Positions 10,060-49,237 of a stretch of DNA of 64,000 nt are shown piece after piece. Within the stretch, counting starts at the first letter, position 1, and each line of letters starts with the position of its first letter. Source of the stretch: an uncultured Spirochaetota bacterium (GTDB lineage: Bacteria; Spirochaetota; UBA4802; UBA5550); assembly GCA_937872225.1 (NCBI GenBank), contig CALMRZ010000021.1:1-64000 (forward strand), given 5' to 3'. Below the pieces are notes generated by a model. That model made no database searches and had not been told where the DNA came from. It worked only from the letters and a program-made list of their open reading frames with translations. Position numbers and translations under genes: made by a program.

Positions 10060-10133
10060 TGGGCAATGCTGGACTCGAACCAGTGACCTCCTGCATGTGA
10101 GGCAGGCGCTCTAACCGACTGAGCTAATTGCCC
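10060..10133 (-). tRNA. tRNA-Val (anticodon CAC)
   Basis: The minus strand reads as a full cloverleaf: acceptor GGGCAAT pairs with ATTGCCC, D-arm GCTC/GAGC, anticodon stem CCTGC/GCAGG around loop CTCACAT with anticodon CAC, and T-arm ACTGG/CCAGC around TTCGAGT. The discriminator base is A and CCA is not encoded. Confidence 0.95.
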
Positions 10134-20753: not shown

Positions 20754-20825
20754 CCCTCTCCCACAGGGAGAGGGGGAAGACTAAGGAAATATTTTATCCC
20801 GAAGCCCTCTCCCTGTGGGAGAGGG
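20754..20825. repeat. Long paired inverted repeat
   Basis: Two 21-bp arms, 20754-20774 and 20805-20825, are exact reverse complements of each other, and each arm is itself almost palindromic (CCCTCTCC...GGAGAGGG). The 30-bp spacer is AT-rich. It sits between the flavodoxin pair and a small SH3-like gene and may fold as one large hairpin or as two small ones. Confidence 0.8.
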
Positions 20826-23014: not shown

Positions 23015-24349
23015 TTATGCCTGGTGCTGCTTCAGGAATGCCGGGATATGGGCCGCCTCGCGGGGACCGATGGTGATCTTCCAGTCGGCGAGCTGTTCTT
23101 CCAGTTCGCCGCTGATGGCCGCCGAATAGCCGGGAATGACCAGGGAACGGTGCTTCACTTTGTCCGCGATGCCGCATTTCTTGACAAAGGGGCCGATGGC
23201 GTCGGCCACGAATTTTCCCGCGGCCCAGGCGGTGAGGACGCTGAGGCCCTCGCAGTCCATGACGAGGAGCCACGCCGGGACCCGGCTTCCCTCGATCTCG
23301 CCGGAGACGATGAAATAGGTGAGCGAAAAGTTCGTGGTGATCATGACCGGCGAATTCTCGTCCGGGTTGTTGATCGGGTACACGCCCTGTTCCGTGGCCA
23401 TGGGCCGCTGGGGATCGGTGAAGATGTTCATCCGCTCCACCAGGAGGGGGAAGAGCCCCTCGCCGCGCAGTTCCGACAGGACCACGATCCCGGCGTACTT
23501 GGCTATGAACGTGGAGGCGATCAGGGTCTCCTCCATGAAGTCCTTTGCCATCTCGCAGGGAAAGGCGATGGTGGGATATCCCAGGGGGCGGAAGGCGCCC
23601 TTGATCGCCGACCGGCGTATCACCACCTGGTCTTCGAAGGCTTTCTTGAGGGTGCGCGCCCCCGAATCTATGACGATTTCTTTCAGGCCCATGGCTGACA
23701 GCTTCTGGGTGAGCTCGATGACCTCATCGATGTTCGCGCCCCTGACCGCGACGGCGCACTTGTTGTCCAGGGCAAGCCTGCCCACCGCGTCCGCGTTCGC
23801 CTTTGTTGCCGCGTAGAGAAGGGGCTTTCTGGCGGCCGTGTGCTTCAGGCCCGCGGCGAGCACGTCGGCGCTTTCGCTCATGAGGATGATGCCCGCGTCA
23901 ACGGCACCGGCGACTTTCTGGACCAGCTTTTCGAAGGCGGCGGCGTCGCCCTTTTCGGATTTGACCGCCACCAGGTCCGCCGCGAGCTGGACCCCGACCC
24001 GCTCGTAGCGCAGCTCTGCGTAGGACCTGAGGCGCCTGTCCACGTCGGCGTCGGCCATGGCGTCGGTAACGAGGACCGCGATCCCCGTGGGGCTCACGAA
24101 GGTCTTCTCGTGGCGGAAGAGCACGGTCTCGCCGCCGGTCTTGAAGGGGCCGATGGAGGCGGGCATCACCGGGGGCGCCGACGCGGAGTCGAGCTTTGCC
24201 TTTGACGCCTCGGACACGTGGGGGCACTTGGCGAGCTCTGCCTGGCCCGCCGCGAGCTTCATGGCAAAGGCGAGGCATGTCGGCACGCCGCAGTCTCCGC
24301 AGTTGGTCTGGGGCAGCAGTTTATAGATTTCAATTCCGGTCATTCCCAT
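23015..24349 (-). CDS. acsC: Corrinoid iron-sulfur protein large (gamma) subunit of CODH/ACS
   Basis: 444 residues from ATG 24349, preceded by GAGGAG. With AcsD it carries the methyl group on cobalt between methyltetrahydrofolate and acetyl-CoA synthase. The 4Fe-4S site is near the start (Cys17, Cys20, Cys25, Cys42 in NCGDCGVPTC and AKCP). The large C-terminal part has the TIM-barrel and Rossmann segments that bind the corrinoid (VMITTNFSLTYFIVSGEIE, LLVMDCEGLSVLTAW). It is separated from acsB by a gap filled with a 44-bp palindrome. Confidence 0.95.
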   Translation of the reverse strand: MGMTGIEIYKLLPQTNCGDCGVPTCLAFAMKLAAGQAELAKCPHVSEASKAKLDSASAPPVMPASIGPFKTGGETVLFRHEKTFVSPTGIAVLVTDAMADADVDRRLRSYAELRYERVGVQLAADLVAVKSEKGDAAAFEKLVQKVAGAVDAGIILMSESADVLAAGLKHTAARKPLLYAATKANADAVGRLALDNKCAVAVRGANIDEVIELTQKLSAMGLKEIVIDSGARTLKKAFEDQVVIRRSAIKGAFRPLGYPTIAFPCEMAKDFMEETLIASTFIAKYAGIVVLSELRGEGLFPLLVERMNIFTDPQRPMATEQGVYPINNPDENSPVMITTNFSLTYFIVSGEIEGSRVPAWLLVMDCEGLSVLTAWAAGKFVADAIGPFVKKCGIADKVKHRSLVIPGYSAAISGELEEQLADWKITIGPREAAHIPAFLKQHQA

Positions 24350-24384
24350 GGTGTAGTCTCCTCGTGAATATAAATGTATGATGT

Positions 24385-24428
24385 GCCCGGTTGAAGGCGG
24401 GGTCACGTGACCCCGCCTTCAACCGGGC
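24385..24428 (-). repeat. 44-bp perfect palindrome between acsB and acsC
   Basis: Two 22-bp arms with no spacer are exact reverse complements, centred on CACGTG at 24404-24409; the outer ends are GCCCGG and CCGGGC. In RNA it would form a very stable hairpin 9 nt after the acsB stop. It could act as a partial terminator, a processing site, or an element boundary. Confidence 0.9.
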
Positions 24429-24437
24429 GTGGTTGCG

Positions 24438-26642
24438 TCAAAATAACGGCTCCATCGTCAGGGCCGGGTGCTGCTTCTCGGTGAGGAAGTTGATGATTTC
24501 CTCTTCCGAGGTCCCCACGGTCTCGTCCGCTATCCGGTCCAGCAGGTCCGGCATGCCGATTTCGGCGGCGCGTTCGTTGAAGCGGTCCCTGATCTCTTCC
24601 TTTAAAGATTTCGGCATCCACACCAGGCGCTTGATGCCGCCCTCGGCGTGGAGGAACTTTCTGCTCGTTATGTAATATTTGCTGTGGCCCACGAAGCCCG
24701 GCGTGATGTTGCCGCCGCCGACCATGCCGGCCAGGGTGGTGAACTTCATGCCCGAGGGCGTCATCGACGCGGTGTCCCGGTCAACGGTCATGACGCCGTT
24801 GCAGATGGGAAGGATGGCAGCGATGCACTCGAAGCAGCCGCAGGAGGTCATCGGGTTCCGCATGATGCTGTAGGCGTCCACTGTCGAGACCGTTCCCCGC
24901 GAGGCCTTGGCCACGAAGTCGTCCACGCCCTTCCACCGGCCGTAGCGGGCGTCGAGCACCGCTCCCTTCGGCACCGGCTGGTTCGGCCCGGTCGGATTTA
25001 TCTCATAGGAGGCCTTGCAGTCGAGCCAGTTGTAGGCGCCGCAGAGTCCGGTCCGCTCCGGCGTCACCACGCACACGTGGTTCGGCGCGAAGGACTGGCA
25101 GAGCAGGCACGAGTAGAAGGGGTCCGTGTCCTCGTCGGTCATGCCGGCGATCCGCTCGTCCCGCTGGCGGTACAGGGCCCGTGCCTTTTCCAGTATTTCG
25201 CGCGCTTTTGCCTCGTCAGTGTATATGGTCACCTGGACCTTGTCGAAGATCTTGCCGAAGTCCTGGTGGAGCTTCGCGTGGAGAATGCTCCCGAGGTGCG
25301 CCATGCGGAAGCCCTTGTCCACTGCCTGCTTGCTCACCCGGAGCCAGGCGATGTCGCGCTGGCCGATGTGCATCACCCCCTGGGCATAGTTGATCAGGTG
25401 GTGGATCTGCCGTTCCAGGATCGGCTCGAAATCGGGCTGCATCTGCCGGCCCGCCACCTCGACGAAAATGGCCATCGGGAGCTGGCTGCCGGCCGGGACA
25501 TCGGTGATCTCCGGTCCCACGACCTCGATCCTGTTGTCCGTGACCGCGTTCATGTCGGCGGAAACGACCAGTTCCACCGCTATCGTGCGGCCGCCGCCGG
25601 CCTCGAGGTAGATGTCGTCGCCGCGGACGCGCTCGCCCTCAAAGGCCGGTCCGTAAGCGACCGGCACCGGTACCTTGCTCACGGAGACTTTCAGGCCCCG
25701 CACCTCTATCGCCTTCGAGACAATAGTGTCGTGGGGAATATTGGAGACCACGTGTTCGTAGGTGCACACGCCCGTGGGGAGTATCTGCGGCGTCGGGGTA
25801 TCGGTAATGATGGGGAAGCCGTAATTCAGACAGCCCGCTCCGTTGGCGTACCACTCGTCGTTCACGAACCCGAAGGTTATGCCGAAGGCGAAGACCCGGT
25901 CCTTGTTGTAGATCAGTATCTTCCGGTAGTCGCCGGGGTCGATGCCGCCGAAGGACATGGCCGCCCTGGTGGCGAAGCCGATGGAAAAGACCGTGGCGCT
26001 CGTGTCTGATCCGAAGGGGACGAGCCTGGTGGGCCAGCCGATCTGCACGCCCTGGTCGAGGAGCTGCTGCGACATGGTGTTTCCGCCGGTGTTGGCGCTC
26101 ATGAACACGTACAGGTTCTTCTGCTGGAGTTCCAGCGCTATCTGCGCCGCGGCCGCGGGGTTTTCCGGCGCGCCCAGCATGGCCGCGAAGCCGGGAGCTG
26201 TGCCGTCCACGAACTCGACGCCGCGCTTCCTCATGATGACGTCGTCCGCGGCGCCGAGCCAGATGTTGTCTTCCCGGGGGTCCTCGCCGGGCACGTACAC
26301 CGACGGGTTGTCGATATACTTGATCGCCTCGATGAGCTCCTCCGCGAAGAACGTGGCCATGCCCGCGTCAAGGGCCGGTCCCAGGTAGGGGAGGTGATGG
26401 TTCTCCTTGACCGGGGGCGGCAGCAGGTTTTTGCTGGCCTTTATCACGTGCTCCATGTCGGCCAGCTTCTGGACCTTGTAGCCCATGATGCCGTATATGA
26501 TGGGCAGATAGTATCCTGTATTGGGAAAAGCGACCTCTTTGGCGGGACCGTAGGCGTCGATGGCGCGCTTTACTTCTTTCTCTGCGCGCTCCACGATGCT
26601 GTAGGCTCCCCGTATGGCCGCTGATGCTATTATCTTTGACAC
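24438..26642 (-). CDS. acsB: Acetyl-CoA synthase (CODH/ACS beta subunit)
   Basis: 734 residues, full length for the bacterial three-domain enzyme that joins CO, a methyl group and CoA. The A-cluster cysteines are all present: Cys512, Cys515, Cys524, Cys534, Cys601 and Cys603, each offset by six from the Moorella residues (506, 509, 518, 528, 595, 597). Start is GTG 26642 behind CGGAGG. It has the N-terminal CODH-contacting domain, so it should form the alpha2beta2 complex with the AcsA encoded upstream. Confidence 0.97.
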   Translation of the reverse strand: MSKIIASAAIRGAYSIVERAEKEVKRAIDAYGPAKEVAFPNTGYYLPIIYGIMGYKVQKLADMEHVIKASKNLLPPPVKENHHLPYLGPALDAGMATFFAEELIEAIKYIDNPSVYVPGEDPREDNIWLGAADDVIMRKRGVEFVDGTAPGFAAMLGAPENPAAAAQIALELQQKNLYVFMSANTGGNTMSQQLLDQGVQIGWPTRLVPFGSDTSATVFSIGFATRAAMSFGGIDPGDYRKILIYNKDRVFAFGITFGFVNDEWYANGAGCLNYGFPIITDTPTPQILPTGVCTYEHVVSNIPHDTIVSKAIEVRGLKVSVSKVPVPVAYGPAFEGERVRGDDIYLEAGGGRTIAVELVVSADMNAVTDNRIEVVGPEITDVPAGSQLPMAIFVEVAGRQMQPDFEPILERQIHHLINYAQGVMHIGQRDIAWLRVSKQAVDKGFRMAHLGSILHAKLHQDFGKIFDKVQVTIYTDEAKAREILEKARALYRQRDERIAGMTDEDTDPFYSCLLCQSFAPNHVCVVTPERTGLCGAYNWLDCKASYEINPTGPNQPVPKGAVLDARYGRWKGVDDFVAKASRGTVSTVDAYSIMRNPMTSCGCFECIAAILPICNGVMTVDRDTASMTPSGMKFTTLAGMVGGGNITPGFVGHSKYYITSRKFLHAEGGIKRLVWMPKSLKEEIRDRFNERAAEIGMPDLLDRIADETVGTSEEEIINFLTEKQHPALTMEPLF

Positions 26643-26788: not shown

Positions 26789-28735
26789 TTACGCCAGCTC
26801 CCTTCTATCCGCCATGTCGAACAGCACGCGCTCCCGCGCCTTGTCGATGCCGAGGTCTTTCCTCTTCCTGTCGATATGCTCGATGATCTTCCGCGCCATT
26901 TCCTTCGGGTCCGCGGCGAAATCCCACCTGCCGCCGTAGATCTTGTCCATGTCCTCGAAGAGGTGCTTCGTCAGCTCCTTGCTCCCGGAGGTCGGCCAGG
27001 TGACGCCGAAGACCGTGTACACGCCGGAGGCCACGAAGTACTGGCCGATTGAGATGGCCTTTTCGCTCATCCATTCCGGCGCTGCGCCCGCCGCCGGCAG
27101 GTCGCTGATATCATTGCCGAGGCCGCCGTCACTGACCACCGCCGTGGCGGCGATGAGGATGCGGCTGTTGTCCACGCAGGATCCCATGTGGAGGACCGGC
27201 GGGATCCCCACGGTCTCGCACACCTCGGCGAGGCCCGGACCGGCGAATTCCCGCGCCGCCTCGGGCGTGAGGAGCCCCTCCTTGCCGAGGCCGATGGCGG
27301 TGCAGCCGGTGGTGAGGACCAGGACGTCGTTCTTGATGAGCTCCTTGACCAGGACCAGGGTGTTGCCGTCAAGCTCGGTGCGGGCGTTGTTGCAGCCCAC
27401 CACGCCGGCGAGGCCCCGTATCCTGCCATTAATAATGTTGTCGTTCAGCGGGCGGTATGAGGCGCGGAAGGTCCCGCCCAGCATGTAGTTCACGGTCTCG
27501 TGGCTGAAGCCGGCGATCATGGGCGCCTTGGCCTTCGGGATCAGGACCTCGCTCTTCCGGTTGCGGAAGTTCTCCACGGCCGCCGCCACGATGGCCTTCG
27601 CCGAGTTCAGGGCGTCGTGCTCGTTGAATTCCATGCGCACCGATCCGGTGATGTCCGCCTTCGGGTTGGTGGTGATGAGCTTCGTGTGGTAGCAGGACGC
27701 AACGCTCTGGAGCGACTGCATCACGCACTGCACGTCCACCACCATGGCCTCCACCGCGCCGGTGGTGATGGCCAGCTCCTGCTGGAGGAAATTTCCCGCT
27801 ATGGGGATGCCGTGGCGCATCAGGATTTCATTGGCCGTGCAGCAGATGCCGGCGATGTTGATGCCGTTGGCGCCGTGGGTCCGGGCCAGGTCGATCATTT
27901 GCGGGTCCCGGGAGGCGATAACTATCATTTCAGATAAAAGCGGCTCGTGGCCGTGGACGATGATGTTGACCTCGTCTTTCTTCAGTACCCCGAGGTTCAC
28001 CTCGGCGTAGACCGGCACCGGCGTGCCGAACATCACGTCCTGGAGGTCGGTGGCCAGCATCGACCCGCCCCACCCGTCTGCCAGGGCCGCCCGTGTCCCC
28101 TGCTTGAGGAGGCTCCGGTAGTCCTGGTCAACGCCCATGTGGGTGCGGTGCATAACCTCGACCACTTCGCGGTCGATGCCCCGGGGCGCGACGCCTTCCT
28201 TGCGCCATATCTCCTGGCGGCGCCGGGGCGCCTTCTTCAGATAGGCAAGCTCGCCCTCCTGTTGACCGAACATGGCCAGGGCCTTCTGGCCGACTTCGAT
28301 GGCGATGGCCTTGGTTTCTTTACCCTCGACGGTGATGCCGAGGTCCATGGCAACGGCCAGGAGTTTCTGCTCGTCCTTGATGCCGTAGCCGGGTATCTCG
28401 CCCTTCGCGGCCGCGAGAAAGATCGCCGCCACGCCGCGGCCGTGGTCCGAGTGCGCCGCTGACCCTGCCGCTATCATGCGGAGGAAGTTCCGCGCGGAGA
28501 TGGTCTCCGCCGTCGCGCCGCAGAGGCCGACCTTGCGAACGGCCCCGGCACTCTTCGGCTCGGGCACCCGGCAGGGTCCCATGCCGCAGTGCTTGCAGCA
28601 GTCCCCGGCGGACCCGATGGGGCAGGGCTTGAGTTCCGCCGCCTTGTCGAACACGGTGCTGACCGAGTCCTTCAACGCTTTTTCGTATATCTCCTGTGAT
28701 GCCTTGTCGGCAAACAGTTTCTTTTCTTCTGACAT
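26789..28735 (-). CDS. acsA: Carbon-monoxide dehydrogenase catalytic subunit (anaerobic, nickel)
   Basis: 648 residues. It interconverts CO and CO2 at a Ni-4Fe-5S C-cluster. N-terminal cysteines fit the D-cluster (Cys38, Cys46) and B-cluster (Cys47, Cys50, Cys55, Cys72) in CPIGSAGDCCKHCGMGPC. Later blocks hold C-cluster ligands (NIAGICCTANEIL, GVVGCNNARTE, LTTGCTAIG, HMGSCVDNSRI). Start ATG 28735 follows AAGGAG. Placement between acsD and acsB marks it as the ACS-associated enzyme rather than a stand-alone CooS. Confidence 0.97.
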   Translation of the reverse strand: MSEEKKLFADKASQEIYEKALKDSVSTVFDKAAELKPCPIGSAGDCCKHCGMGPCRVPEPKSAGAVRKVGLCGATAETISARNFLRMIAAGSAAHSDHGRGVAAIFLAAAKGEIPGYGIKDEQKLLAVAMDLGITVEGKETKAIAIEVGQKALAMFGQQEGELAYLKKAPRRRQEIWRKEGVAPRGIDREVVEVMHRTHMGVDQDYRSLLKQGTRAALADGWGGSMLATDLQDVMFGTPVPVYAEVNLGVLKKDEVNIIVHGHEPLLSEMIVIASRDPQMIDLARTHGANGINIAGICCTANEILMRHGIPIAGNFLQQELAITTGAVEAMVVDVQCVMQSLQSVASCYHTKLITTNPKADITGSVRMEFNEHDALNSAKAIVAAAVENFRNRKSEVLIPKAKAPMIAGFSHETVNYMLGGTFRASYRPLNDNIINGRIRGLAGVVGCNNARTELDGNTLVLVKELIKNDVLVLTTGCTAIGLGKEGLLTPEAAREFAGPGLAEVCETVGIPPVLHMGSCVDNSRILIAATAVVSDGGLGNDISDLPAAGAAPEWMSEKAISIGQYFVASGVYTVFGVTWPTSGSKELTKHLFEDMDKIYGGRWDFAADPKEMARKIIEHIDRKRKDLGIDKARERVLFDMADRRELA

Positions 28736-28750: not shown

Positions 28751-29695
28751 TTATCCCATCAAATTCTGAATCATCTTCTTCATCTGCTTCACCGACTCCG
28801 GGTGGCGCAGGATAAGGATATCGGCGCCGGCCAGGAGAAGGCTCGTTGCGGTGACGCACTCCATCAGGATGCCCCGCTCCTTCGCGCTTCCCAGCTTCGG
28901 ATCATCGGCCTCGGTCATCTTGGCCTCTTTCGTTTTCCATACCTCTATGCCCACGTTGCAGATGATGGGGTACTGCAGCTTCTCGTCTTCCTGCGTCAGG
29001 GCAGCCATGCGGTCCCGCTCCATGACTGAGTAGGTGTATTCCAGGCCGTAGCCGAGGGCGCCGGTGGTGGGATCGACAAGGATCTTGTCCGCCGGCACGC
29101 CCAGGTTGCCCAGCAGGATGTTCAGCTGCTTGGCCAGGTTCACGTCGATGGGGGACGATGCCACCGCGACGTGCTTGTAGGCCAGGGCCCCGGCGCCGAT
29201 CTGCTTGTAGTCGCCTTCCTCGACGGGCCCCAGGGCGAGGTTCTTCCCGTCGCACTCTTCCGCAAGGATGCGGAGGACTTCGGTGTCCTTATCGTGGTTC
29301 CCCACTCCCCAGAGGATGACCGGCACGTCCACCGCGGCAATGACCTTCTTGGCGATGTCCGCCGCTTCCCGGGCCGAACGGTTCATGCCGTTGGGGTCGA
29401 TGCTCGTCATCTGGAGGGCGATCATGTCGGCGCCGTATTCGGCCACGTTCTTTTTGGCCCAGGCCGCGGGATCGTCAAGGACATCGGCAAAGGGTTCAAT
29501 CGCGGCAACCGGCCACTCGTCGGGCTTGCTGTCGAAGACCTCCATCGCGATCCTCGGCGGATGGGGCATGGACCCTTCAAAGAGATGGAAGGGATATGAT
29601 GTCGCCCCGCCCACGGTGACCGACGTAACGCCGGTACCCAGGGTTATTTCCCTGATCTTGCCGGAATAATTTACTTTGGGTATATCGAATGCCAT
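28751..29695 (-). CDS. acsD: Corrinoid iron-sulfur protein small (delta) subunit of CODH/ACS
   Basis: 314 residues, the usual length, a TIM-barrel protein that pairs with AcsC to hold the corrinoid. Family blocks include VGGATSYPFHLFEGSMPHPPRIAMEVFD near residue 28 and VDVPVILWGVGNHDKDTEVL in the middle, plus LVDPTTGALGYGLEYTYSVMER. Start ATG 29695 lies behind GGAGGA. It is 15 bp upstream of acsA, consistent with one transcript. Confidence 0.95.
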   Translation of the reverse strand: MAFDIPKVNYSGKIREITLGTGVTSVTVGGATSYPFHLFEGSMPHPPRIAMEVFDSKPDEWPVAAIEPFADVLDDPAAWAKKNVAEYGADMIALQMTSIDPNGMNRSAREAADIAKKVIAAVDVPVILWGVGNHDKDTEVLRILAEECDGKNLALGPVEEGDYKQIGAGALAYKHVAVASSPIDVNLAKQLNILLGNLGVPADKILVDPTTGALGYGLEYTYSVMERDRMAALTQEDEKLQYPIICNVGIEVWKTKEAKMTEADDPKLGSAKERGILMECVTATSLLLAGADILILRHPESVKQMKKMIQNLMG

Positions 29696-31526: not shown

Positions 31527-32275
31527 AATATCCTCCCCAGCATCTCCTCGAAACGCTGCACGGTCTTCGTACTGTCGGGCAGGTCGATGAGCGGCACTCC
31601 CATGATCTCGGATTCCTCGATCTCGGTGTCCATGACGGTATGGCCCAGGAAGGGAATGCCGGTTTCCTCAATGCCATTGAGGAATTCCTGTTCCAGCGTT
31701 TCCGGGGTGCGGTTCACCAGGAGGTAGCGGTCGCCCACGTCTATCTTGAGGTCCTTCACCAGGCCGGCGATGGTCTTCACGGTCTTTAATCCCTTCAGCG
31801 AATAATTGGAGCAGAAGATCAGCGTATCGATGCGGGCCGCTGTCTTGCGGCTGAAATGCTCCATCCCCGCCTCGTTGTCCACCACCACGTACCGGTAGTT
31901 CTTGGATAGGTGCTCGAAATAATCTTTTAGGATGGAGTTGGCCGCGCAGTAGCACCCGGGTCCGTCGGGGCAGCCCATGACCAGCATGTCCATGTCCTTT
32001 CCTTCTTTTAATATCTGGTGGAACTTCAGGTCCAGGTATGATTGCTTCGTCATCCCTGTTGGGACCCGGGCGCGGTCGCGCATGAAATCGGAAAGGACCG
32101 TGCCGATGGTGTCGTTCACCCGCACGCCCAGGGAGTCGGCCAGGTTCGCGTTGGGGTCCGCGTCCATGGCGAGGAGCGGGACCTTCCGCGCTTTAAGAAG
32201 ATGGCGGATGATCAGCGCCGCCGTCGTTGTTTTCCCGGTGCCGCCCTTGCCGGCCACCGCCACTATCCTGCTCAC
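31523..32275 (-). CDS. cooC: CooC-type nickel-insertion ATPase, operon copy
   Basis: 250 residues. P-loop GKGGTGKTT at 9-17, DADPNANLAD switch, and the CxC pair Cys108/Cys110 (GPGCYCAAN) that binds metal between two subunits. It should drive Ni insertion into AcsA or AcsB. GTG 32275 overlaps the stop of the upstream activator gene, and its own stop overlaps the FosX-like start. The first copy at 11.5 kb differs in sequence, so the two may serve different nickel sites. Confidence 0.92.
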   Translation of the reverse strand: MSRIVAVAGKGGTGKTTTAALIIRHLLKARKVPLLAMDADPNANLADSLGVRVNDTIGTVLSDFMRDRARVPTGMTKQSYLDLKFHQILKEGKDMDMLVMGCPDGPGCYCAANSILKDYFEHLSKNYRYVVVDNEAGMEHFSRKTAARIDTLIFCSNYSLKGLKTVKTIAGLVKDLKIDVGDRYLLVNRTPETLEQEFLNGIEETGIPFLGHTVMDTEIEESEIMGVPLIDLPDSTKTVQRFEEMLGRIL

Positions 32276-34251
32276 CGCGCCCCTCCCCGCGCCGGGCCGT
32301 ACGTGCCGCCGATATTCCTGAATTTCTCCATGACCGTGGGAAAGTTCCTGATCTCCGTGTGGGGGAAGAAGAGGGACGCCACGTAGTGGTCCATGAAGGA
32401 TTTGTTCTCGCTCAGTTCGAAATTGGTCATCCGCGCCGCGATCTCCTCCGCCTCGGCGAGAAGCTCCCGGGACATGGTCGCCAGGCGGGCGCCCTGGAGG
32501 GAGCTGTTCCCGATGAAGGAGAAGCGCTCCACCGGCAGGTCGGGGAAGAGGCCTGTGACAATGGACTTTTCGATATCGACGTAGCTCCCGAAGGCGCCGG
32601 CGATGATGACCTCGTCGAGGTCGTTGTGCGAGAGGCCGACGCTTTCCAGGAGCGTCTGGTACCCGGCGTACATGGCGCCCTTGGCCCGCATGAAGTTATC
32701 GATGTCGACCTCGGTTATGACGATATCGCCGTCTATGCCGCTCCGGTCCGCGGTGACCAGCACGTATTCCATGCCATCGGAGCCGCGGCGGAGGCGCGCG
32801 GCCTTGCCGTCGGTCCTGAATTTGCCGTTCGGCTCGAGGAGCCCTGTTTCCAGGAATTCCGCCACGATGTTGATGATGCCGGAGCCGCACACGCCCTTCG
32901 GCTTTTCCTCGCCGATGGTGAAGACCACGGGCTCGCAGGTTTCGGGGTCAATGCGGACCTCCTCTATGGCGCCGAAGGTCGCCCGCATGCCGTGGCGTAT
33001 GCCGCCGCCCTCAAAGGCGGGACCGGCGGAACAGGACGCGGTCACGAGCCATTCCCTGTTTCCCACCACGATCTCGCCGTTGGTCCCGATGTCGATGAAG
33101 AGCGTGTTCCTGTCGCGTCGGTGGAGTCCGGAGGCGAGGACCCCCGCCACGATGTCGCCGCCGACATAGCTCGAGATCATGGGCATGGCATAGAGATAGG
33201 CGTGGCCCGGGAGGTCGAGGCCGAGCTCCGATGTCCGTACCGGAGGCATCTGGTTCACGACAGGCGTGTAGGGCGCGGAGCGGATATGGCGCGTGTCAAG
33301 GCCGAGGAGCAGGTGGGTCATGGCGGTGTTGGCCGCTATGGTTAGGTGGGGCACGTCATTGCGGATGACATTTCCCTTCCGGAGAAGTTCGGCAATGACG
33401 CCATTCATCGTATCAACAACGGTTTTCTGGAGAATGGAAAGGCCATCACCCTTGCCGGCGAAAACCATCCTGCTGATCACGTCTTCGCCGTATTTAATCT
33501 GCCCGTTATAATCAGAAGCTTCTGCGATGGTTTCGCCGCGGGCCAGGTCGATGAGCTCGCCGCACACCGTGGTGGTTCCCACGTCAATGGCAATGCTGTG
33601 GTGGCGGGCGGAGGTGTCGCCCGCTTCGATGCTGATGATCCGGGGATGGCTGCTCCCCGGTTTCGAGCCGAAACGGGTGTACAGGATGGCGGCCGTGGCC
33701 TTCCAGCCGCCGTCCCTGATCGCGGCGGAGAGACCGCGGATAGCCTGGTAATCGACCGAAACGTCCTCAAGGTTGTGCTGTTTTTTCAACGCCCGCAGGG
33801 TCCGCGACAGGTCGCTGGCGTTGTCTTCAAGATCGGGCGCATCTATGATGATGACTTTTTTTTCGATAACCGGATGATGGATGCCCGCCATGGCTTCCGT
33901 CTCCCGCGGCATGGCCAGCCTGCCGGTGGGTCGCTTCACCTTTGAGGCGTCAAGGACCCCCCGGTGCAGGCGGGACTCCGGCGGTATCTCCACTTCAAGT
34001 GACGTTTCGGCATGGCTCAGACAGGCGAGGCGGTATCCCTTTGCATAATCTGCGTCGGAAACCTTTTCAGTTTTGCCGCCGATCACGCTCCCTTTTTTGA
34101 CAAGGACACGGCACTTGCCGCAGGTGCCCTGCCCCCCGCAGGAAGAGTTTATGTGGACGCCCGCAGCATGGGCGGCGCGGAGCAGATTCTCGCCCTTGGG
34201 CACCGCCACGGTCATGTTGTCGGGGAGCAATGTAAGGTTGACTTCCTGCAT
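32272..34251 (-). CDS. Reductive activator of corrinoid protein (RACo-type, ASKHA fold)
   Basis: 659 residues. An N-terminal plant-type 2Fe-2S ferredoxin domain (Cys38, Cys44, Cys47, Cys77 in SSCGGQGTCGKC and LACLSH) is followed by a linker domain and a large ASKHA ATPase domain (AIDVGTTTVCGELIDL, LFIDIGTNGEIVVGN, GGDIVAGVLASG). Such proteins use ATP to return inactive Co(II) of the corrinoid iron-sulfur protein to Co(I). As first gene of the operon it lies next to a 13-bp inverted repeat that may control transcription. Confidence 0.93.
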   Translation of the reverse strand: MQEVNLTLLPDNMTVAVPKGENLLRAAHAAGVHINSSCGGQGTCGKCRVLVKKGSVIGGKTEKVSDADYAKGYRLACLSHAETSLEVEIPPESRLHRGVLDASKVKRPTGRLAMPRETEAMAGIHHPVIEKKVIIIDAPDLEDNASDLSRTLRALKKQHNLEDVSVDYQAIRGLSAAIRDGGWKATAAILYTRFGSKPGSSHPRIISIEAGDTSARHHSIAIDVGTTTVCGELIDLARGETIAEASDYNGQIKYGEDVISRMVFAGKGDGLSILQKTVVDTMNGVIAELLRKGNVIRNDVPHLTIAANTAMTHLLLGLDTRHIRSAPYTPVVNQMPPVRTSELGLDLPGHAYLYAMPMISSYVGGDIVAGVLASGLHRRDRNTLFIDIGTNGEIVVGNREWLVTASCSAGPAFEGGGIRHGMRATFGAIEEVRIDPETCEPVVFTIGEEKPKGVCGSGIINIVAEFLETGLLEPNGKFRTDGKAARLRRGSDGMEYVLVTADRSGIDGDIVITEVDIDNFMRAKGAMYAGYQTLLESVGLSHNDLDEVIIAGAFGSYVDIEKSIVTGLFPDLPVERFSFIGNSSLQGARLATMSRELLAEAEEIAARMTNFELSENKSFMDHYVASLFFPHTEIRNFPTVMEKFRNIGGTYGPARGGAR

Positions 34252-34256
34252 ATTTT

Positions 34257-34294
34257 TATATTACTATATCAAAATATCTTTATATAGTAATATA
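34257..34294. promoter_or_regulatory. Inverted repeat upstream of the CODH/ACS operon
   Basis: TATATTACTATAT and ATATAGTAATATA are perfect 13-bp inverted arms with a 12-bp spacer, ending 6 bp from the first start codon of the operon. It could be an operator for a dimeric regulator or a leader hairpin masking the ribosome site. Confidence 0.55.
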
Positions 34295-34687
34295 AGAATA
34301 TATTCCTGTCAAGATTAATTTTCCAAATAATATACCGGAGTTTTCCTAGCTCACAAGCGTAATTTAATTAGCGGTAACATATTTGGACATAATTTGTGTT
34401 AAATAATTAGTGCCTTATTTATGCTATTCACGTTTCATTTGGTATGGATTATTTTTTATATATTAACGTAAAAGTTAAACCAAGTGGTTAAATAATATGA
34501 TCTGAATTTTTATAAAAGAGTCAAGAGCTATTTTAACCGGGGCCACACGGCTTTGTATTAATAGTTAAGAATTTATTGCTATCGCCGGTGATCATGGCGA
34601 AGTAATATTAAATGAAATGGTACTGGGGCATGGCTCAAGAAATTATAATTGTTGTGCTCACAAGGATTATGCGACATGGATGGTTAT
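34295..34687. other. AT-rich intergenic region between the CODH/ACS operon and fhs
   Basis: Together with the inverted repeat it separates the activator start from the fhs stop. Very AT-rich compared with its flanks; it must hold the operon promoter. I see no ORF with a ribosome site and no RNA family that I recognise. Confidence 0.4.
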
Positions 34688-49164: not shown

Positions 49165-49237
49165 CCCCCCAACCCCCCGGAGGGGGGCTTGTAAATCAAC
49201 AATTATTATAAAAGTCCCCCTCCGGGGGGTTGGGGGG
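49165..49237. repeat. C-rich paired inverted repeat
   Basis: Two 26-bp arms (49165-49190 and 49212-49237) are reverse complements with one mismatch; the left arm begins CCCCCCAACCCCCCGG. The AT-rich spacer is about 21 bp. The best-preserved member of the family, placed between the aldolase stop and the M50 start. Confidence 0.85.

Follow-up and report, generated by a model that had tools for sequence, protein, structure and literature searches.

The perfect 44-bp palindrome between acsB and acsC is a copy of a multicopy, intergenic repeat that lies mostly right after stop codons, and the outer arms of each copy pair with each other, not with the arms of other copies. The window, i.e., the whole stretch of DNA that was analyzed, comprises 64,000 nucleotides of an uncultured Spirochaetota genome. 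The explanation that we favor is that a REP-like element grew its arms through fold-back (template-switch) synthesis. Our joint reading, which we regard as reasonably probable, is that a genus-specific REP-like repeat behind acsB would have spread as a single-stranded DNA hairpin, acquired its outer arms by fold-back synthesis, and come to form an intercistronic hairpin in the mRNA. The features of the locus are as follows.

24385 to 24428, no strand assigned: 44-bp perfect palindrome, copy of a dispersed repeat (repeat search)
24393 to 24420, no strand assigned: family-conserved core, GAAGGCGGGGTCAC joined to GTGACCCCGCCTTC (arm positions 1 to 14 conserved in 79 copies)
24421 to 24428, minus strand: acsB-side outer arm, sense GCCCGGTT, copy-specific, resembling native flank (alignment with the G005 gap)
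24385 to 24392, minus strand: acsC-side outer arm, sense AACCGGGC, specific to this copy, perfectly complementary to the acsB-side arm and putatively its inverted copy
24438 to 26642, minus strand: acsB, acetyl-CoA decarbonylase/synthase alpha/beta subunit (NF040764, 1082 bits; cut-off 800)
24440 to 24438, minus strand: acsB stop codon
23015 to 24349, minus strand, ATG at 24349: acsC, acetyl-CoA decarbonylase/synthase gamma subunit (NF003195, 600 bits; cut-off 306)
24358 to 24363, minus strand: probable Shine-Dalgarno sequence GAGGAG of acsC, outside the hairpin (read from the sequence)
26789 to 28735, minus strand: CO dehydrogenase catalytic subunit, upstream on the same strand (TIGR01702, 629 bits)
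28751 to 29695, minus strand: acsD, delta subunit, same strand (NF003377, 569 bits)

A repeat search recovered the palindrome as an earlier note had described it, with two 22-nt arms (24385 to 24406 and 24407 to 24428) that are 100% complementary and have 0 nt between them. The setting between acsB and acsC given there was also borne out, both genes matching their NCBIfam profiles above cut-off, and the four top-ranking acsB matches were spirochaete MAGs. Among hairpins with loops of 0 to 8 nt, this is the only mismatch-free one of its size in the 64-kb window, where naive arithmetic with equal bases gives a chance expectation of about 4e-9 for a zero-spacer palindrome with 22-nt arms. On the sense (minus) strand of the 88-nt acsB-acsC gap, it begins 9 nt past the acsB stop, and 35 nt separate its end from the acsC ATG. 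The strong RNA hairpin that had been expected just past the acsB stop is likewise predicted by folding: a 106-nt stretch reaches -51.7 kcal/mol (z -9.1), and none of 200 shuffles was equally stable. The sole Rfam match in the window was a tRNA at 10060 to 10133, leaving the palindrome without an Rfam match.

A search for the same palindrome elsewhere in the genome, as the earlier note had proposed, found the repeat, with its core (GAAGGCGGGGTCAC joined to GTGACCCCGCCTTC) in 23 to 31 places of the 4.69-Mb genome and in 1 to 30 places in each of five congeners, compared to 0 to 2 for the reversed-pattern control. With up to 3 mismatches allowed, the 22-nt core GGCGGGGTCACGTGACCCCGCC occurred in 23 places of the own genome (G000) and in 20, 15, 5, 4, and 1 places of the congeners G004, G005, G003, G001, and G002, respectively. 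The same pattern was present in 7 of the 26 genomes listed as belonging to the same order, in none of the 14 other genomes of the family, and in none of 52 same-phylum genomes, while its reversed control gave 0 matches in all 98 genomes. A looser pattern matched 31 places in the own genome versus 2 for its control, and a third one matched 30, 16, 5, 4, and 1 places in the congeners. BLAST with the whole element led to about sixteen further places, all matched via its center. In contrast, a search with a single 22-nt arm found no match beyond the acsB-acsC site, because the outer arm is copy-specific. Given this recurrence of the core across genomes against 0 to 2 control matches, the element is a dispersed, intergenic, REP-like palindromic repeat. 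The notion that the palindrome is rare and special to a metabolic operon was therefore not borne out, since it is one of about 25 to 30 genomic copies, and the multicopy core seen in both the pattern searches and BLAST rules out a single-copy regulator of the acs operon. A phage origin was also considered, and viral_contigs contained no exact core match.

The earlier note had allowed that the palindrome might be an artefact of assembly. In favor of an assembly or chimera artefact of short-read metagenomics, the genome is a draft of 95 contigs, and one related copy, in G027, is found at the end of a contig. However, the core recurs with differing flanks in six genomes of the genus that were each assembled on their own, and orthologous copies exist in G000 and G004, so that an artefact is extremely improbable.

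To describe the family, we retrieved 79 copies. The own genome supplied 30 of its 31 places (the window copy among them, C65:35438 left out), G004 supplied 23 of 30, G005 supplied 17 (all 16 plus one extra met on retrieval), and G003 and G001 supplied all of their 5 and 4 copies, respectively. The G002 copy was inspected outside this count. According to a simple codon-usage gene caller, the flanking genes are codirectional for 41 copies, convergent for 26, and divergent for 10; of the remaining two, one has no right-hand gene in its stretch and the other falls inside a doubtful 17-codon open reading frame call. Measured from its center, a copy lies a median of 30 nt past the nearest upstream stop codon, and the distance is at most 40 nt in 47 of 67 cases. 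Convergent gaps are overrepresented, since they hold 26 of the 79 copies and account for 4.4 of the 37.2 kb that the gaps of these loci add up to; the loci were themselves picked for carrying a copy.

This strong bias toward 3' ends, including the convergent share, is what one would expect if the repeat were a lineage-specific transcription terminator or attenuator working without a U-tract. In convergent copies the outer arms are also A-rich upstream and T-rich downstream (0.40 versus 0.27), and a canonical terminator-like hairpin is present in the convergent gap of G004 that is orthologous to the gap of a G001 copy. However, codirectional copies, the acs one included, show no T enrichment (0.27 versus 0.27), the acs palindrome is absent from the output of a terminator scan, and its place is within an operon, upstream of the acsC ribosome site. 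We thus consider this explanation distinctly unlikely. An intrinsic U-tract terminator was rejected outright for the acs copy, where a GC stem followed by a T-run is not found.

Aligning the 79 copies showed that the element has a conserved 28-nt center and a total length of 44 nt at the acs site and, for most copies with full arms, of up to about 46 nt. Arm positions 1 to 14 are conserved in sequence (GAAGGCGGGGTCAC), with position 7 alternating between G, C, and A, mostly matched on both sides. Positions 15 to 23, by comparison, share at most 0.18 bits of information and yet pair in 34 to 70% of copies, while pairing past position 23 is at the background level of about 25%. Over positions 15 to 23, 356 of 711 positions are paired, compared to 194 ± 12 when right arms are shuffled among copies; over positions 24 to 32 the numbers are 177 of 711 and 189 ± 12. 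The excess is seen separately in G000 (z 5.4), G004 (z 5.5), and G005 (z 7.9) and is weak in the small sets from G003 (z 3.0) and G001 (z 2.1). Thirteen copies have perfect arms of 20 nt or more when counting starts at position 3; between these copies, the 9-nt outer arms match at a mean of 2.6 and a maximum of 5 of 9 positions. The arms also tend to end at a defined place: 7 of the 8 that reach position 23 stop there, versus 40 stops in 258 steps at positions 14 to 22 (Fisher 2.5e-5, a value limited by the fact that this edge was picked after inspection of the data).

Orthologous copies behave accordingly in two cases. The outer arms of L142 (G000) and L217 (G004) differ between the species and pair within each, with a small offset in G000, and those of C81:74206 have changed relative to its G005 counterpart and are still paired. 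In a third orthologous pair, L145 and L208, the outer arms are unpaired in both species, showing that arm pairing is not universal.

The center itself could be read as a protein-binding palindrome, e.g., a chromosome-organizing site. In most copies it is perfectly palindromic, positions 1 and 2 pairing in 82% and 73% of copies, and the TCACGTGA in the middle of the core at 24393 to 24420 equals the middle of the bacterial parS site. On the other hand, the center bases vary among copies (TCGC, TCAT, TCTC, and TCAA), the copies are scattered over many contigs, and a dimer site would leave the copy-specific paired arms out to 23 nt unexplained, making this reading very unlikely.

Stem covariation of this kind is usually taken as a sign of RNA selection, and the origin and upkeep of perfect REP-like stems are unsettled. 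Stems that are selected in mRNA should tolerate G.U mispairs on the sense strand more than A.C mispairs. In codirectional copies we counted 3 G.U versus 15 A.C mispairs on the sense strand (p 0.008); convergent copies, whose strand is arbitrary, had 12 and 5 (p 0.14), and divergent ones 4 and 5. This excess of A.C over G.U in the codirectional copies does not suggest that the stems are kept paired at the mRNA level, although the numbers of mispairs are small.

These counts bear on the possibility that the acs hairpin is a selected intercistronic RNA structure setting acsB/acsC stoichiometry, for which the repeat served as raw material only. The very stable fold at the acs site is in keeping with this, as are hairpins of unrelated sequence that beat shuffles in the acsB-acsC gaps of G003, G004, G005, G008, and G011 (z -3.3 to -5.5), with a weaker one in G033 (z -2.8). 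Of 85 acsB loci, 61 gaps could be folded, and 17 of these reached a z of -3 or lower, one of them trivially (L018, 25 nt, -2.0 kcal/mol, no real hairpin). However, the gap of the congener G002 has no hairpin (z 0.3), 21 of the 85 gaps are under 20 nt and offer no room for one, a further 3 have no recognized acsC start, and the sense-strand mispairs favor A.C over G.U. Hairpins in this gap are thus common but not required, and their sequence is not conserved at this position among relatives. Taken together, we see selection for an RNA hairpin as possible, if on the doubtful side. Even so, the very strong predicted hairpin, together with the unrelated ones that fill the relatives' gaps, makes it plausible that the element acts as a 3' exonuclease barrier or reduces the output of acsC. 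In our joint reading, and more tentatively than for the DNA-level steps, the transcribed copy may slow 3'-to-5' decay of acsB mRNA as a strong intercistronic hairpin and may modestly lower acsC without intrinsic terminator action. This resembles the intercistronic REP of malE-malF in E. coli, a strong hairpin past the upstream gene that is said to protect the upstream mRNA; the acs palindrome is likewise predicted to form a strong hairpin right behind the upstream gene of its operon.

In G005, where the core is absent, the sequence right after the acsB stop aligns into the acsB-side arm of the window (CGCAACCAC..CCGGTTG) with a score of 22.5, which none of 2,000 shuffles reached, with the caveat that GGTTG also pairs with a CAACC just upstream. 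The same alignment with G002, G003, and G004 gave no match. As the acsB-side arm matches native flank in G005, the acsC-side arm seems to be its inverted copy. Copy L143 points the same way, its perfect 23-nt arm extending into the coding sequence at the end of the adjoining gene. The apparent native origin of the acsB-side arm is thus read mainly from a single alignment, plus L143. Among the ortholog sites compared, none showed a clean target duplication or insertion footprint, most being too diverged to read; at the site orthologous to C81:65128, G004 shows a clean absence, with the stop codon abutting the next ATG and no footprint.

These features resemble those of template-switch (quasipalindrome) mutation, which predicts copy-specific, perfectly paired outer arms like the ones seen here. 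A single such event can create or mend a hairpin stem through an inverted copy of one arm (PMC8794818; see also PMC7202029). For the acs element, a repeat with a conserved 28-nt center would have lodged right behind the acsB stop codon, and fold-back DNA synthesis would then have created or mended its outer arms, writing an inverted copy of the acsB-side flank onto the acsC side. To our knowledge, template switching is familiar as a local mutation process and not as the way in which a dispersed family of bacterial repeats obtained its arms. More tentatively, one might envisage a class of mobile hairpins whose ends are not inherited but made anew at each site after the conserved center enters as single-stranded DNA, fold-back synthesis writing an inverted copy of about 9 nt of host sequence on the far side and stopping near position 23. 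We hold this generalization to be speculative and rather improbable; if it were true, the self-complementary ends of every copy would be an address of its own, taken from the target.

As to how the center spread, the element would have traveled as a single-stranded hairpin, with an IS200-type (HUH/Y1) transposase as its probable mover, because a sibling family of palindromes flanks such genes in these genomes. IS200-type Y1 genes of 113 to 123 amino acids, with the own-genome one scoring 81 bits against NF033573 (cut-off 55), are adjoined or bracketed by perfect or near-perfect palindromes of 38 to 48 nt at G000 C47, G004 C24 and C1, and G005 C43 and C53, some palindromes being shorter (26 to 34 nt); a sixth short Y1 gene, L246 in G001, has no flanking palindrome. 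The siblings are centered on TTTAAA, ATTAAT, or CTTAAG instead of TCACGTGA and share with the acs repeat merely a loose TGA.AGG.CGGGGT resemblance, judged by eye. A TTTAAA-centered palindrome was readable in 7 of 8 loci examined, all seven with the inner arm CTG[AT]TAGGGNGGGGTTT in common and with outer arms that differ and still pair out to 22 to 33 nt (33-nt arms in one copy). Private paired ends are thus a trait that extends to other palindromes of the genus, and an arm limit near 23 nt does not hold in general. The acs core itself was linked to no transposase: allowing up to 2 mismatches, half of the core occurred in none of the 20 Y1 loci scanned, out of 26 Pfam hits. Nor did it flank a RAYT, the RAYT-like genes in L262, L265, and L269 carrying a different, TCAGAGTAA-type repeat as judged by eye. 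Separately, we observed two cases in which a gap occupied by an acs-type palindrome in one species contains a RAYT-like gene in a different species (L204 versus L265/L262 and L223 versus L269), which could be a coincidence of permissive gaps.

By the criteria given in the available text of PMC12306157 (extragenic, palindromic stem-loop, short, i.e., 14 to 40 nt in E. coli, with a common consensus and in multiple copies), the acs repeat is REP-like. It lies between two called genes in 77 of 79 copies, folds into a palindromic stem-loop, is short (44 nt, compared to the 20 to 50 nt stated in part of PMC8266576), and occurs 23 to 31 times in its own genome, its consensus covering positions 1 to 14 but not 15 to 23. 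REPs and REPINs with TnpA-REP (RAYT) are described, in the parts of the sources available, as short intergenic palindromes in many copies, with stems that change in a compensatory way, and Y1 enzymes are considered to mobilize them as single-stranded hairpins (PMC8266576, PMC3116915, PMC3733652). The acs repeat is likewise short, intergenic, palindromic, and multicopy, with compensated stem changes. Unlike REPs with a GTAG (or GTGG/GYRG) tag at the 5' foot, however, its left arms carry GNAG, with A at the second place in 51 and T in 12 of 79 copies, so that GAAG is the prevailing form of the tetranucleotide, which takes part in the pairing, and no cognate RAYT flanked by the repeat was found in the 20 Y1 loci. 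Given the differing tag and the lack of a cognate RAYT there, we did not file it as a RAYT-moved REP. Whereas REPINs, in the available text of PMC3116915, have conserved ends and a variable, compensating paired spacer, the acs repeat is their mirror image, with a conserved center and variable but paired ends. The ends of the IS200 family are described in the accessible part of PMC6006769 as small subterminal hairpins. The siblings beside Y1 genes recall the IS200/IS605 arrangement, but they are perfect and zero-spacer, and the acs core flanks no Y1 gene; the palindromes at such genes having TTTAAA, ATTAAT, or CTTAAG centers, the acs repeat does not qualify as a nonautonomous IS200-type element.

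Among the papers listed for the palindrome sequence, only the 10-mer GTCACGTGAC occurred, and none contained the 16- or 22-nt core. Likewise, among the matches listed on REP/RAYT and on template switching or compensatory change in dispersed palindromes, a coverage that is no proof of absence, we found no bacterial repeat with a conserved center and copy-specific paired ends. The family described here combines copy-specific pairing without shared sequence, mispairs that do not favor RNA, and one arm matching native sequence, and it makes template switching as a source of stem covariation directly testable in bacteria. It also cautions that a perfect palindrome within an operon can be a mobile repeat and not an operon-specific regulator.

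Several further repeats were observed along the way. In G004, L264 (G004:C6) contains a Y1-transposase fragment with palindromes of 57 nt (1962 to 2018) and 49 nt (2163 to 2211) that have a GGACAGAACA/TGTTCTGTCC core in common and differing but paired outer arms, i.e., the private-ends pattern in a third family. The stretch G004:C15:110062-114912 has matches of about 33 nt every 65 to 67 nt over nearly 5 kb and looks like a large CRISPR array; it is matched by L276:8741-8773, with a related repeat in the own genome. Within the window, further long intergenic hairpins, of the CCCTCTCCC and CCCCCTCC types, lie at 20754 to 20825 and 49165 to 49237, and C-rich hairpins like these occupy gaps of the acs operon in G004 and G005. 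Finally, an AT-rich near-palindrome with 26-nt arms at 34250 to 34301 adjoins the start of the minus-strand open reading frame at 32272 to 34251 and could be an operator.
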